This document shows positions 23,540 to 28,824 of a stretch of DNA of 64,000 nucleotides, piece by piece. The position numbers were made by a program, and so were the translations under genes. The notes beneath the pieces are model-generated. The model saw nothing but the letters and a program-made list of their open reading frames with translations, ran no database searches and was not told where the DNA came from. The stretch spans positions 2,761,001-2,825,000 of the forward strand of contig NZ_CP097253.1 in NCBI RefSeq assembly GCF_023380025.1, read 5' to 3'. The stretch comes from Sphingomonas glaciei. GTDB taxonomy: Bacteria > Pseudomonadota > Alphaproteobacteria > Sphingomonadales > Sphingomonadaceae. Numbering within the stretch: the first letter of the stretch is position 1; each line of letters begins with the position of its first letter.

Positions 23540-24667
23540 TCAGCGCGCCGGCTGGTCGACCTTGTTGGGGGCGTTTGGCGGACTGATCTGACCCGTCATG
23601 GCAGCAGGCTGCTGCAAGGCGCGGACCACGCCCTGTTCCGCCGCCGTGCGGGGCTGCGAATTGTAGCCGGCCGGGCGCAGGTACGGATAATCCTTGATCA
23701 TCGACACGCCGCCCAGCGGCTTGTTCACGCCCTGGTGGCAGGTCAGGCAATTGACCTGCAGCGGGGCCCCGGTCGGCCCGAGACGGTTTGGCGGGAAGAC
23801 CCCGGCACGGGCCAGCGGGCTGATGTGCGAACCGTTGATGTCGCGCACCATTCGGATGCCGTACCAGGCGGTCGCCCGCTGCGCGCTCGACAGCGACCAG
23901 CTGCGGAAGCTCTGCGAATTGTGGCAGAAGGTACAGTTGACGCCGAGCGACTTCGACACGTGCATCATGATCGCATAACTGTTCTCGGCGTCGCGCGTGG
24001 TCAGCGGCTGGGTGCCGGGATAGGCGGTACTGGCGGCGACCCGGACGCTTTGCGCGTTGCCGCCAAGATATTCCTCGAACACGCCGGTCGGAAGCGAGGC
24101 ATAGCCGACGTTGGCGTCCGGGGTGTTCTGGCCGCGCTTCTGGCCGCGGATGGTCATCTTGTCGGCTGGCTTCTCGGGGCTCCAGACATATTCGGGCACC
24201 GGCTTCCCGCGGTGGCAGGTATAGCAGGTGACGCCGGTCTGGCCGGTGTGGTTGGACCATTGCGAGTTGAGCGACATGGTCATCTTCAGCATCTGCCGAG
24301 CGACCTTCTTGGTATAGACGCTGTCGTCCGCCATGTTCGCCGGATTGTGGCAATATTGGCAGTTGGCGGCGTCGCCCGCGACCCACAGGCTGATCGAGCT
24401 CATCAGATGGCCAAATTCCTCTTCGGAAAGGTTGTTCAGAACCTGGATGTTCTGGCCCTGCACCCGGGGTCCGGTCGAGGCCGCGGCCGACAGCGGATAG
24501 GGCGGCGCGGGAATCGCGGCGGCCGCCTTGATGCTGCTGACGTCGGTGATCTGGTCCATGCCGGTGCCGCGATAGCCGGTCTGCTGGCTGGCCTTCGATC
24601 CGAGCTCACAGCCCGACAGCGCGAGCAGCGGAAGGACACCGGTGAGGAGGGTGCGAGGGGTCGTCAT
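23540..24667 (-). CDS. pufC: Reaction-centre tetraheme cytochrome subunit PufC
   Basis: 375 residues; lipoprotein signal with the lipidated Cys20 (ALSGC), giving a membrane-tethered periplasmic cytochrome. Four CxxCH heme sites are present: 103-107, 148-152, 245-249 and 307-311, in the two-pair arrangement of PufC. It relays electrons from soluble or tethered carriers to the special pair of PufL/PufM. The start at 24667 gives the signal peptide; the open frame upstream belongs to the pufM shadow. It is last in crtF-bchCXYZ-pufBALMC, 13 nt after pufM. The tail after the last heme (~60 residues) is Pro/Gln-rich. Confidence 0.97.
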   Translation of the reverse strand: MTTPRTLLTGVLPLLALSGCELGSKASQQTGYRGTGMDQITDVSSIKAAAAIPAPPYPLSAAASTGPRVQGQNIQVLNNLSEEEFGHLMSSISLWVAGDAANCQYCHNPANMADDSVYTKKVARQMLKMTMSLNSQWSNHTGQTGVTCYTCHRGKPVPEYVWSPEKPADKMTIRGQKRGQNTPDANVGYASLPTGVFEEYLGGNAQSVRVAASTAYPGTQPLTTRDAENSYAIMMHVSKSLGVNCTFCHNSQSFRSWSLSSAQRATAWYGIRMVRDINGSHISPLARAGVFPPNRLGPTGAPLQVNCLTCHQGVNKPLGGVSMIKDYPYLRPAGYNSQPRTAAEQGVVRALQQPAAMTGQISPPNAPNKVDQPAR

Positions 24668-24680
24668 GGGAAGGCTCTCC

Positions 24681-25802
24681 TCAGCGGGCCGGCAGCGGCG
24701 TCGGCGCGGCGGGCGTCGGGACCGTGGTGGGCTGCGTGGCGACCGGCGGGGGCGGACCGGCCGCGTCACCGACCGGAAGGCCGCCGGCCTCGGCCGGAAC
24801 CGTCGGACTGGCGGCTGCGCTCGGGTCATAGGGCACTGGCAGCGGCTGCAGGGCCGGATCGGCCGTGTTGGTGGTCGGATAGGAGGGCGCGTAATGGTGT
24901 TCCTGCGCCCATAGATACCAGTTGTCGACGACGGTGCCGGTCAGCAGGATGCCGATGCCGCCGGTCAGCGTGGTCAGCACGGCGAACCACCAGGCCCAGC
25001 GGTGCACCGATTCCATCGTTGCGTTGAAACCCATCGTCCAGCGCCAGAACAGGGCGGCCCGCTCCAGCGCGGTACCGCGGTCGGTGATATGCTCGATCTC
25101 GCGCTCGCCGCCATACCGGCTGACGGCGAGGATGGTCGCACCGTGCATCGCGAACAGCAGGGTCGAGCCGTAGAGGAACGCGATCGAGAGCGCGTGGAAC
25201 GGGTTGTAGAAGAGGTTGCCGTAGCGGATCGAGAAAGCCGCGGTCCAATCGAGGTGCGGAAAGATCCCGAACGGCACCGCTTCGGCCCAGCTGCCCATCA
25301 GTCCCGGGCGGATGAAGCCCAGCACCAGGAACAGCCAAATCGCGCTGGCAAAGGCCCAGGCGACGTGGGTGCCCATGCCGAGTTCTCGCGCGCGGCGGTA
25401 GGTCCGGGCCCACCACAGCAGCACCGAGCAGGTGAGGAAGAAGCCGGCCATGATCCACCAGCCGCCCTGCGCCAGCGGAACGAAGGGATAGAAGCCCCAT
25501 TCCGGCCCCGGCGGTTCAAGTGCGAGCCACGGCAATTGGCGTGCGAACTGCACCGGGTCCCAATTGACGCTGGCCCACATGTTGAGGCCGATGATCTCGA
25601 ACGCGAGGAAGCCGCAGATCAGCGAGGCGAGCCCCAGCTTGCCGAGGTAGAAGGGGCCGACCTGTGCGGCGCCGAGCTTGCCCATCCAATAATGATACTG
25701 GCCGCTGCCGACCCGCGGGTCGTTGCCGGTGGGGAGCGGTGCGCCATATTCCGGCTTTGACCGGAGCTGCACCTGGGTGAAGATGTTCTGGTAGGCGCCC
25801 AT
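24681..25802 (-). CDS. pufM: Photosynthetic reaction centre M subunit PufM
   Basis: 373 residues. The five-helix core is intact, with [31 protein letters not shown] and [16 protein letters not shown] holding the pigment and iron histidines, and ends at about residue 311 ([15 protein letters not shown]). The usual length is near 305-325; here an extra ~62 residues rich in Pro, Ala and Thr follow, with no predicted fold. The M subunit's C-terminus is on the periplasmic side, so the tail should lie near PufC or LH1. It lies 17 nt downstream of pufL and 13 nt upstream of pufC. Confidence 0.97.
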
Positions 25803-26765: not shown

Positions 26766-26996
26766 TTACTGGGCGGGTGCGACCGGAGCCGCGGCCACCG
26801 GGGCTGCCGCCGCCGGGGGCAGGGCCGCCGGCGAACTTGCGGTCACGCCGGCATTTTGCGCGCGCGGCCCGTCAAGCCAGTTGAACCGGTCGGTGCTGAG
26901 CAGGATGAAATGGATCAGCAATGCCAGTACGAACAGGAAGGTGAACAATGCCACCAGGGTACGGCGGGGATCGAAAATCAGCCAGATTCTCCACAT
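26766..26996 (-). CDS. pufA: Light-harvesting 1 alpha subunit PufA
   Basis: 76 residues. The N-terminal [13 protein letters not shown], a single membrane helix and the bacteriochlorophyll-binding His29 (ALLIHFILL), followed by RFNWLDG, are classic LH1 alpha. The usual protein ends within about 10-20 residues of this point. Here a ~30-residue Ala/Pro-rich tail follows, on the periplasmic side. It pairs with PufB in the ring around the reaction centre. It starts 12 nt after pufB and is followed by the stability hairpin. Confidence 0.96.
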
Positions 26997-27008: not shown

Positions 27009-27254
27009 TTAGCTGAAGATCGTCAGGACGACGCTGGCCATCTGCTGGCCGGTGTCGATCATCGCGGAGGCACCGTAGCCAGCCTCGCCGGGAAGCCACG
27101 GCCGCCACATCCAGGCAAGGAAGTGGGCAACAATGGCGATCGCCGTGAACAGCAAGAAGCTGGTGACGAAGATCTTGTGGAATTCTTTCGCTTCCTCCGG
27201 GGTCAGGTAGGTACCCGGACCGAAGCGATCATCGCGCTCTCTTGTGTCGCTCAT
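27009..27254 (-). CDS. pufB: Light-harvesting 1 beta subunit PufB
   Basis: 81 residues. [19 protein letters not shown] and [15 protein letters not shown] are diagnostic; His44 binds bacteriochlorophyll and His26 is the conserved second histidine. A C-terminal extension of ~26 residues follows RPWLP, ending in a weakly hydrophobic ASVVLTIFS; most LH1 beta chains stop soon after RPWLP. A GGAGAG ribosome site lies 6 nt upstream of the ATG. That ATG overlaps the stop of the preceding 44-codon ORF (ATGA). Confidence 0.96.
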
Positions 27255-27385
27255 GCGTCGCTCTCCATTATGCCCGTTTCCGAAGAAGGAGGCGCGAACG
27301 CCAGCGGGCGGCTTTCTCCGTGGGCGTTGCCGTCCACGAAGGGGGTGGGCCTGGGGGACCAGGCGAAGGCGGGGGAGCGGATCAT
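27251..27385 (-). CDS. 44-residue ORF coupled between bchZ and pufB, unknown
   Basis: An open frame of 44 codons fills the entire gap between bchZ and pufB. Its ATG overlaps the bchZ stop (ATGA, 27382-27385) and its TGA overlaps the pufB start (ATGA, 27251-27254). The product begins [19 protein letters not shown] and is Pro/Ser-rich, with no membrane helix. This is the place of pufQ in Rhodobacter, but PufQ is a ~70-residue membrane protein, so I do not call it pufQ. It may be a real small protein, or a translated leader that couples bchZ to pufB translation. Codon-level conservation is untested. Confidence 0.5.
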
Positions 27386-28824
27386 GCCGGCAGCTCCATC
27401 AGGGTATCGGCGAGGCGGTCGGCGGTGACCGTGCGCTCGCCCGCGGATCGTGCCGCGCGTTCGGCGGCGTCGCGCAATTTCTTGGCGGCGGAGATGCGGA
27501 CCAGCACCGGCTGGGCATCGACGATCGCCTGCAGCTTGGCGCGGGCGGGTTCGTCCCAGGCAAGCTCGGCCAGGCCGCGCGTGGGGGTCGCCTCGACCTT
27601 GTCCATCTGCGCGGCGCCCGGGAGGATGTGGAAAAGCGCGTCGAACAGCGCGTTGCACACTTCCTGCAGCAGGTAGGTGGCGCCGGCATAGCCCATGAAG
27701 GGCGTGCCGGTGTGGCGGCGGATGATCGGCAGCGGGAAGCTGGCCGGGATGAAGGTCGCCCGCGCTCCGCTTTCGGCCAGGTACATGCGCTCGTTGAAGC
27801 TGCCGAAGACGATTAGCGGGGGCTGGTTGGCGCAGGCGGCGATGACCGTCTGGTTGTCGGGCTTGACCCCGGCACGGCGGGCAAAGGCGAAGCTGCAGGG
27901 CAGGCCCATATCGCCCTCGAGAAAGGCGCGGACGCCGCGGGCATAGGTGTCGGTGGCGTGGATCCCGAAGCTGGCGGTGCCGAAGAAGTCCTGGGTGACC
28001 GAGCGCCACAGGTCCCACAAAGGCTTGATGGTGGTGTGCTTTTCGCGCTCGATGAACGGCTCGGGATCGAGCCCGGTGAGCTCGCCCAGCTGGCGCAGGA
28101 ACAGGGTGGTCGAGGTGATGCCGATCGGCGCCTGGAGGTAGGGGCGGTCGAGCTCCTCGCACAGCTTGCGGCCCCATTCGCGGTACATACAGACGTTGAC
28201 GCTGGCATCGGCGAGCTTGCGGATGTCGGCGAGGTGGGTGCCGAGCGGGAAGGTCATGTTGACCTCGGCGCCGATGCCTTCGACTAGGCGGCGGATCTCG
28301 GCGAGATCCGAGGGCATGTTGAAGGCGCCGTATTGCGGGCCGATGATGTTGACCTTGGGCCGCTCGCCCTCCTTCAACTTCCTAGGGCCAGGCACTTTCT
28401 TGGGGCCGAACTGGGTCCACAGCCAGAGAAGCGCGCGGTCGGCGGATTGCCACTGGTCCTCGTCGATGGTGCGGGGAAGGAAACGCTGGATGGTGGTACC
28501 CTCGGGCGTCACGCCGCCGCCGATCATCTCGGCGATCGAGCCGGTGACGACCACGCTTGGCAGGTCAGGATCGAGGGTCGCCCAGGCCCGCTTCATCGCG
28601 CCCTCGGTGCCGTCGCGGCCGAGTTCCTGTTCGGAAAGGCCGGTGACCACAATCGGCAGTTCGTGGGGCGGCAGCGCGTCGGTGTAGTGGAGGACGCTCG
28701 TGACCGGCAGATTCTCGCAGCCGACGGGGCCGTCGATCACCACCTGCAGGCCTTTGACCGCGGTGAAGGCGTAGACCGCGCCCCAGTACCCGCCGGCGCG
28801 GTCGTGATCGAGGATCAGGGTCAT
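27382..28824 (-). CDS. bchZ: Chlorophyllide a reductase subunit BchZ
   Basis: 480 residues, NifK-like subunit of chlorophyllide oxidoreductase. Landmarks are [34 protein letters not shown] near the N-terminus and the small C-terminal helical domain ([24 protein letters not shown]) shared with BchB. With BchY it holds the [4Fe-4S] cluster and active site that reduce the C7=C8 bond of ring B, using electrons from BchX. It is coupled by ATGA to bchY upstream and to the 44-codon ORF downstream. Confidence 0.97.

Follow-up and report, generated by a model that had tools for sequence, protein, structure and literature searches.

In Rhodobacter sphaeroides, the small open reading frame (ORF) pufK is placed directly before pufB. 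According to the accessible part of PMC5725709 (citing Gong and Kaplan 1996), pufK, lying in the puf leader region before pufBA, has been proposed to gate ribosomes into pufBA via rare codons, acting by ribosome passage and not by its product. The pufQ gene follows bchZ, with a four-base overlap in many species (same part of PMC5725709), and a survey covering ten clusters reported that Sphingomonadales and NOR5/OM60 lack pufQ (PMC3176799; repeated in PMC12654162; both in their available sections). A related arrangement is that of the bicistronic-design leader cistrons, or ATGA coupling, in which the Shine-Dalgarno site of the following gene lies within a short leader frame that terminates on that gene's start codon (available excerpts of PMC11602170 and PMC5995908).

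Here we describe a small ORF between bchZ and pufB for which, by analogy, pufK is the closest precedent. Unlike pufK, which accompanies pufQ and is marked by rare codons, this ORF begins on the bchZ stop, occurs where pufQ is missing, and belongs to a class of frames without rare-codon enrichment. It resembles the bicistronic-design leader cistrons, yet it is natural, is conserved over a bacterial family, is apparently coupled at each of its ends and overlies predicted hairpins. No description of this frame was found in the literature covered, which lay mostly outside subscription journals.

The window, i.e. the whole stretch of 64,000 nucleotides of Sphingomonas glaciei DNA that was analysed, comes from a genome consisting of one contig of 2.88 Mb. 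On its minus strand the gene order is bchZ, a 44-codon frame and pufB, with the following features:

27382..28821 (5′ bound provisional), minus strand: bchZ, chlorophyllide reductase subunit (Pfam PCP_red and nitrogenase-type domains)
27394..27397, minus strand: GGAG within the 3′ end of bchZ, Shine-Dalgarno-like for the ORF start (duplex energy −5.6 kcal/mol)
27382..27385, minus strand: ATGA, ORF start over the bchZ stop (final bchZ codon is the rare GCA)
27251..27385, minus strand: putative translated-spacer ORF, 44 codons, filling the whole bchZ-pufB gap (predicted; frame kept in relatives)
27349..27364, minus strand: hairpin H1 (GCCTGG-TCCC-CCAGGC; predicted fold)
27316..27342, minus strand: hairpin H2 (CTTCGTGG...CCACGGAG; predicted fold)
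27291..27302, minus strand: hairpin H3 (GGCG-TTCG-CGCC; predicted fold)
27263..27266, minus strand: GGAG, Shine-Dalgarno site of pufB, inside the ORF (from sequence)
27251..27254, minus strand: ATGA, pufB start over the ORF stop (from sequence)
27009..27254, minus strand: pufB, LH1 beta subunit, 81 aa (Pfam LHC domain; NCBIfam LH1-beta equivalog)

The arrangement is as an earlier note on this DNA had claimed: the frame runs from 27385 to 27251 with ATGA at both ends, and both flanking genes are confirmed by their Pfam domains and the NCBIfam equivalog. The ORF ATG (27385-27383) overlaps the bchZ TGA (27384-27382), and the ORF TGA (27253-27251) overlaps the pufB ATG (27254-27252), so that both ends show the stop/start overlap of a translationally coupled gene pair. 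Searches of Pfam and NCBIfam with the small frame gave nothing at E up to 1, and no consensus promoter or terminator was found in the window between 27150 and 27700. Matches to BchZ occurred in 77 of 397 family genomes, 26 of 385 class genomes and 6 of 71 genus genomes (G000, G011, G029, G032, G053 and G056), and the double ATGA is common to the congeners G011, G029, G032, G053 and G056. A PufB search of 149 relatives gave 13 with a match.

From a BchZ search of a named genome collection, the best 80 of 591 relatives were used; among the matches listed, the best were mostly from Sphingomonadales, and the window's own genus was possibly excluded there. There were 143 spacers of 100–230 nt, of which 110 were left once near-duplicates had been taken out; junctions outside this range were dropped, as were loci without bchZ or pufB (L002, L016, L017, L064, L139 and L152). 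As the pufB start we chose, of the ATG codons preceded by a Shine-Dalgarno-like site, the one closest to the match, with a correction by hand in L037. We split the 110 spacers by hand into 87 from Sphingomonadales, 14 Caulobacterales-like and 9 other, the 23 outside Sphingomonadales being placed by record titles, kinship and appearance, and some of the loci placed by hand being metagenomic. The gaps of the 87 Sphingomonadales spacers range from 106 to 218 nt (median 132), and their open frames span 37–70 codons. A frame was counted as open when, read on from the bchZ stop, it met no stop codon until 15 nt or less remained before the pufB ATG.

That a single such frame is open is weak evidence, since shuffling leaves 64% of comparable spacers open; it is in the retention of frame, start and phase among relatives that chance is exceeded. 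In the comparison of Sphingomonadales junctions that the note had proposed, the frame is open in 82 of the 87 deduplicated spacers, against 55.5±4.2 expected from dinucleotide shuffles and 55 and 58 for the other two frames, and an [AG]TGA lies on the bchZ stop in 82 of the 87. In a set of 36 representatives whose identities in bchZ are all below 80%, it is open in every one (control frames 23 and 24). With near-duplicates kept, 96 of 102 distinct junctions have it open (other frames 61 and 69), and the six closed cases are L037 and L046, L074, L077, L123 and L133. The latter five, apparently one lineage, have long (185–218 nt), variable spacers in which the frame is broken, and they offer a natural test of losing translation through the spacer.

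The length of the gap is also constrained. Modulo three it is 1 in 61, 0 in 24 and 2 in 2 of the 87 spacers (67, 30 and 5 of the 102 distinct junctions for 1, 0 and 2), and the rare phase, found in 2 of the 87 and in none of the 36 representatives, is that in which the frame could continue into PufB. Nearest neighbours that differ in length do so by a multiple of three in 43 of 67 cases. In 50 of the 87 the frame ends at +4 relative to the pufB ATG, i.e. with the exact ATGA overlap. Nominal p values for the 36 representatives are 2e-7 for the frame and 5e-7 for the phase; they serve as a guide only, because the sequences are related by descent and this kinship inflates significance. Loci without pufQ that were placed outside Sphingomonadales show a weak effect or none: the frame is open in 10 of 14 Caulobacterales-like spacers (6.5 expected) and in 4 of the 9 others (4.7 expected).

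The start of the frame bears its own signature. In 72 of the 87 junctions the codon lying across the bchZ stop is ATG and in 10 it is GTG, and the last base before the stop is A in 74. Where bchZ ends in alanine, the final codon is GCA in 59 of 69 cases (29 of 34 among the 36 representatives), compared with 10.7% for internal alanines. The 14 nt before the ORF start pair with the anti-Shine-Dalgarno at −4 kcal/mol or lower in 65 of the 87, and, compared with in-frame bchZ windows, this site ranks at 3.9% (median) or 15.7% (mean) for such pairing. As judged from sequence, the GCA preference and the Shine-Dalgarno-like pairing are marks of a putative initiation site inside bchZ.

One of the two options in the earlier note was a new small photosynthesis protein. 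In favour of an ORF encoding such a functional protein are the conserved start, stop and open frame and peptides that are somewhat alike within genera. We rejected it on codon positions and on a shared motif. Taking one close pair from each of 17 hand-chosen groups, we counted 114, 113 and 124 substitutions at codon positions 1, 2 and 3 (chi-square p 0.73), whereas in bchZ of the same 17 pairs third-position substitutions dominate. Since the three positions are hit evenly, no peptide is conserved; within these 17 pairs, purifying selection on the amino-acid sequence, the hallmark of a conserved small protein, was not found. A motif beginning GGRTRC, present in 37 of the 87 spacers, is read in three phases (21, 7 and 9; a few look like chance matches at other places in the spacer). 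The open frames range over 37–70 codons and are unrelated in sequence between genera, the window ORF has no Pfam or NCBIfam match, and we regard a small functional protein as scarcely credible. A leader-peptide attenuator fares no better: by eye, no residues are common across genera, and the codon positions show no selection at the peptide level. We also rejected rare-codon gating in the style of pufK, as the rare-codon fraction (hand-chosen rare set) is 0.112, compared with 0.108 and 0.112 in the control frames.

As to RNA structure, many of 46 spacers folded one at a time show successive hairpins. Against shuffles, the folding energy has a mean z of −1.13 over the 87 spacers (17 above 0), a modest excess; for the window spacer z is −2.3 in this 87-spacer test, or −0.83 when a longer stretch is folded. 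Aligning 15 spacers over their full length with MAFFT yielded no consensus fold of use, and we therefore aligned the H2-H3 part alone, from 25 spacers with a recognisable copy. In this hand-picked set of 25, pairing holds in 85.5% of cells, compared with 41–54% with slid partners, and there are 33 double-change cells, compared with 9.0±2.7 after shuffling. A covariance model, R1, built from these 25 seeds and run on 100 sources, a subset of the loci collected, matched 42 of them at E up to 0.01, all within the spacer and 17 of them non-seeds; it misses the window's own junction as well as L005 and L006. In the window clade H3 is invariant, and H2 has two double-change pairs among four sequences, which is not above shuffles, while the counterparts of H2 and H3 covary in other genera; the window clade carries a diverged version of H2-H3. 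Searching Rfam gave no match at gathering score in 20 loci, and on the window stretch nothing but a miRNA match that fell below threshold and lay outside the spacer.

Could structured RNA alone be what matters, as processing or stability hairpins upstream of pufBA, with the open frame a by-product of their GC-rich sequence? The H2/H3 covariation in the 25 hand-picked spacers fits such an explanation, as do the hairpins predicted in spacers between pufQ and pufB, which favour no frame. Against it, structure would not be expected to prefer one frame, to pick GCA together with a Shine-Dalgarno-like site, or to avoid one phase, and the control frames stand at the shuffled expectation. We judge the RNA-only explanation very unlikely. 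Occlusion of the pufB Shine-Dalgarno site by spacer structure was rejected as well, as the site is unpaired at 0.431, compared with 0.414 in shuffles (p 0.22).

Hairpins of another kind precede pufB in other bacteria, pufQ-type loci included; therefore, on the predicted folds, RNA structure in the pufB leader may predate this frame. In several loci outside Sphingomonadales (L131, L138, L184, L186, L188, L189, L197, L175 and L177), the alignment has just upstream of pufB a hairpin GCCGCGCGGG-N-GCGCGG, in many cases with TAACGGCC after it. In L175, a gammaproteobacterial record, this GCCGCGCGGG-type hairpin has an altered loop side.

The 42 pufQ-type loci provide a direct comparison. They comprise 37 from outside the order and five from within it (L010, L012, L014, L015 and L091), and their PufQ-like frames, of 65–138 codons, were picked by a hydrophobic stretch. 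L132 and L161 yielded no PufQ candidate, and L149, L164, L167 and L194 had candidates below the helix cut-off. In the pufQ-pufB spacer the corresponding frame is open in 14 of the 42 and the other two frames in 22 each. No frame is favoured after pufQ, and the effect is therefore specific to the bchZ-pufB spacers of the Sphingomonadales group. The pufQ start (taking the earliest start codon) overlaps the bchZ stop in 17 of the 42, and hence the earlier note was apt in likening the position of the frame to that of pufQ. It was likewise right that the frame lacks a membrane helix, since by eye its 44 residues contain no hydrophobic stretch, PufQ-like helix or C-terminal motif. The window ORF differs from pufQ in this lack and in showing no selection at the peptide level.

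We also searched with profiles. The Pfam family PF05398, which had no match in 34 genomes, pufQ-type ones included, is of no use for detecting PufQ. A profile built from 10 PufQ-like proteins gave strong matches in six of the eight pufQ-type genomes searched, missing G091 and G376; four of the six (G100, G115, G795 and G891) had supplied its rows, so that G114 and G852 are the independent ones. None of 29 pufQ-less family genomes gave more than a single weak match. Matches of this weak kind, at E 7e-6 to 0.01, occurred in 14 family genomes and fell inside pufB in G000, G011, G029 and G032, which may reflect either shared membrane-helix composition or a distant kinship of PufQ and LH1 beta. The missed G376 carries L091, a Sphingomonadaceae locus with a pufQ-type junction whose BchZ is just 65% identical, which hints that its photosynthesis cluster was acquired by transfer.

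Four genomes of other families of the order have a PufQ-like frame at the position of the ORF; the survey cited above had reported no pufQ for Sphingomonadales. Probably, we infer, the ORF arose in Sphingomonadaceae by loss of pufQ, with the bchZ-overlapping start kept and the leader drawn into frame. Such an origin raises the question whether the frame is simply a fast-evolving remnant of pufQ, carried passively and with its start kept by ancestry, for which the four loci of other families and the shared overlap in 17 of the 42 would speak. A neutral relic, though, would not be expected to hold a stop-free frame, its phase and GCA through such divergence, and with neither a Pfam match nor, by eye, a PufQ-like helix or C-terminal motif in the ORF, we consider a passive remnant highly improbable.

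The reading we prefer, at a probability of roughly 0.58, is that the ORF is a translated spacer, retained for being translated and not for its peptide, which would couple bchZ to pufB. The earlier note had put forward a translated spacer carrying ribosomes from bchZ to pufB, by which LH1 synthesis would track chlorophyllide reductase; of this, the start, Shine-Dalgarno-like site, frame and phase are found to be conserved, and conserved without sequence conservation, while translation of the ORF and its coupling to pufB are what we infer from these patterns. Ribosomes ending bchZ at GCATGA would restart on the overlapping ATG, aided by the Shine-Dalgarno-like site in the last bchZ codons, and would then traverse about 45 codons of GC-rich hairpin RNA, melting the hairpins on the way. 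They would stop at the TGA within ATGA, where some could restart on pufB, whose strong Shine-Dalgarno site sits inside the ORF. The primary bchZ-puf transcript would in this manner supply pufB with ribosomes and have them shelter the junction, and RNA cut at the junction could still use pufB's own site.

Counting against this reading are that pufB's own Shine-Dalgarno site reaches −4 kcal/mol or lower in 86 of the 87, that 22 of the 87 ORF starts lack a site of that strength, that spacer structure leaves the pufB site as accessible as in shuffles, that six of the 102 distinct junctions are closed, and that the effect fades outside Sphingomonadales. Because pufB has its own strong site, unhidden by folding beyond chance, the coupling is probably partial. 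The same strong and unoccluded site also suits a serious alternative, in which the frame is translated to shield the junction from Rho-dependent termination or RNase cleavage while pufB starts independently through its own Shine-Dalgarno site. In favour of such shielding, the exact ATGA end is found in just 50 of the 87 frames, and in Rhodobacter capsulatus RNase E cleavage in pufQ yields a stabler pufBALMX RNA (PMC6238624, in its accessible part). On its own it leaves unexplained why the frame usually ends a few bases from the pufB start, although stops in two frames are often supplied by the pufB start itself, and we hold it to be unlikely.

A broader form of the translated-spacer reading can be put forward tentatively, at somewhat less than even odds: a sequence-blind ribosome conduit may have replaced pufQ, with start, frame, phase and end selected across the family while the peptide drifts, all over structured RNA, and the flow of ribosomes from chlorophyllide reductase may set LH1 synthesis or puf mRNA processing. 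Selection for translation and selection on what is translated are commonly taken as a single thing, and the frame sets them apart. If the reading is true, it points to a way in which Sphingomonadaceae connect their bacteriochlorophyll genes to the antenna genes in the absence of pufQ, and the frame would be a natural bicistronic-design element conserved over many genera. Small-ORF surveys that use open frames or substitution ratios alone would then misjudge such frames, and the old pufK ribosome-gate idea becomes testable by comparison.

Some features of the neighbouring puf genes may be mentioned. Following pufM (24681-25802), an open frame at 23540-24829 in the window has four CXXCH motifs and is probably pufC; a 2011 survey (PMC3176799, in its available section) described Sphingomonadales as being without pufC. 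Long C-terminal tails are seen in pufB (27009-27254), in the next small gene (26766-26996, taken as pufA by position) and in pufM, those of the latter two being Ala/Pro-rich, and a pufB of equal length (81 aa) is present in G011, G029 and G032.
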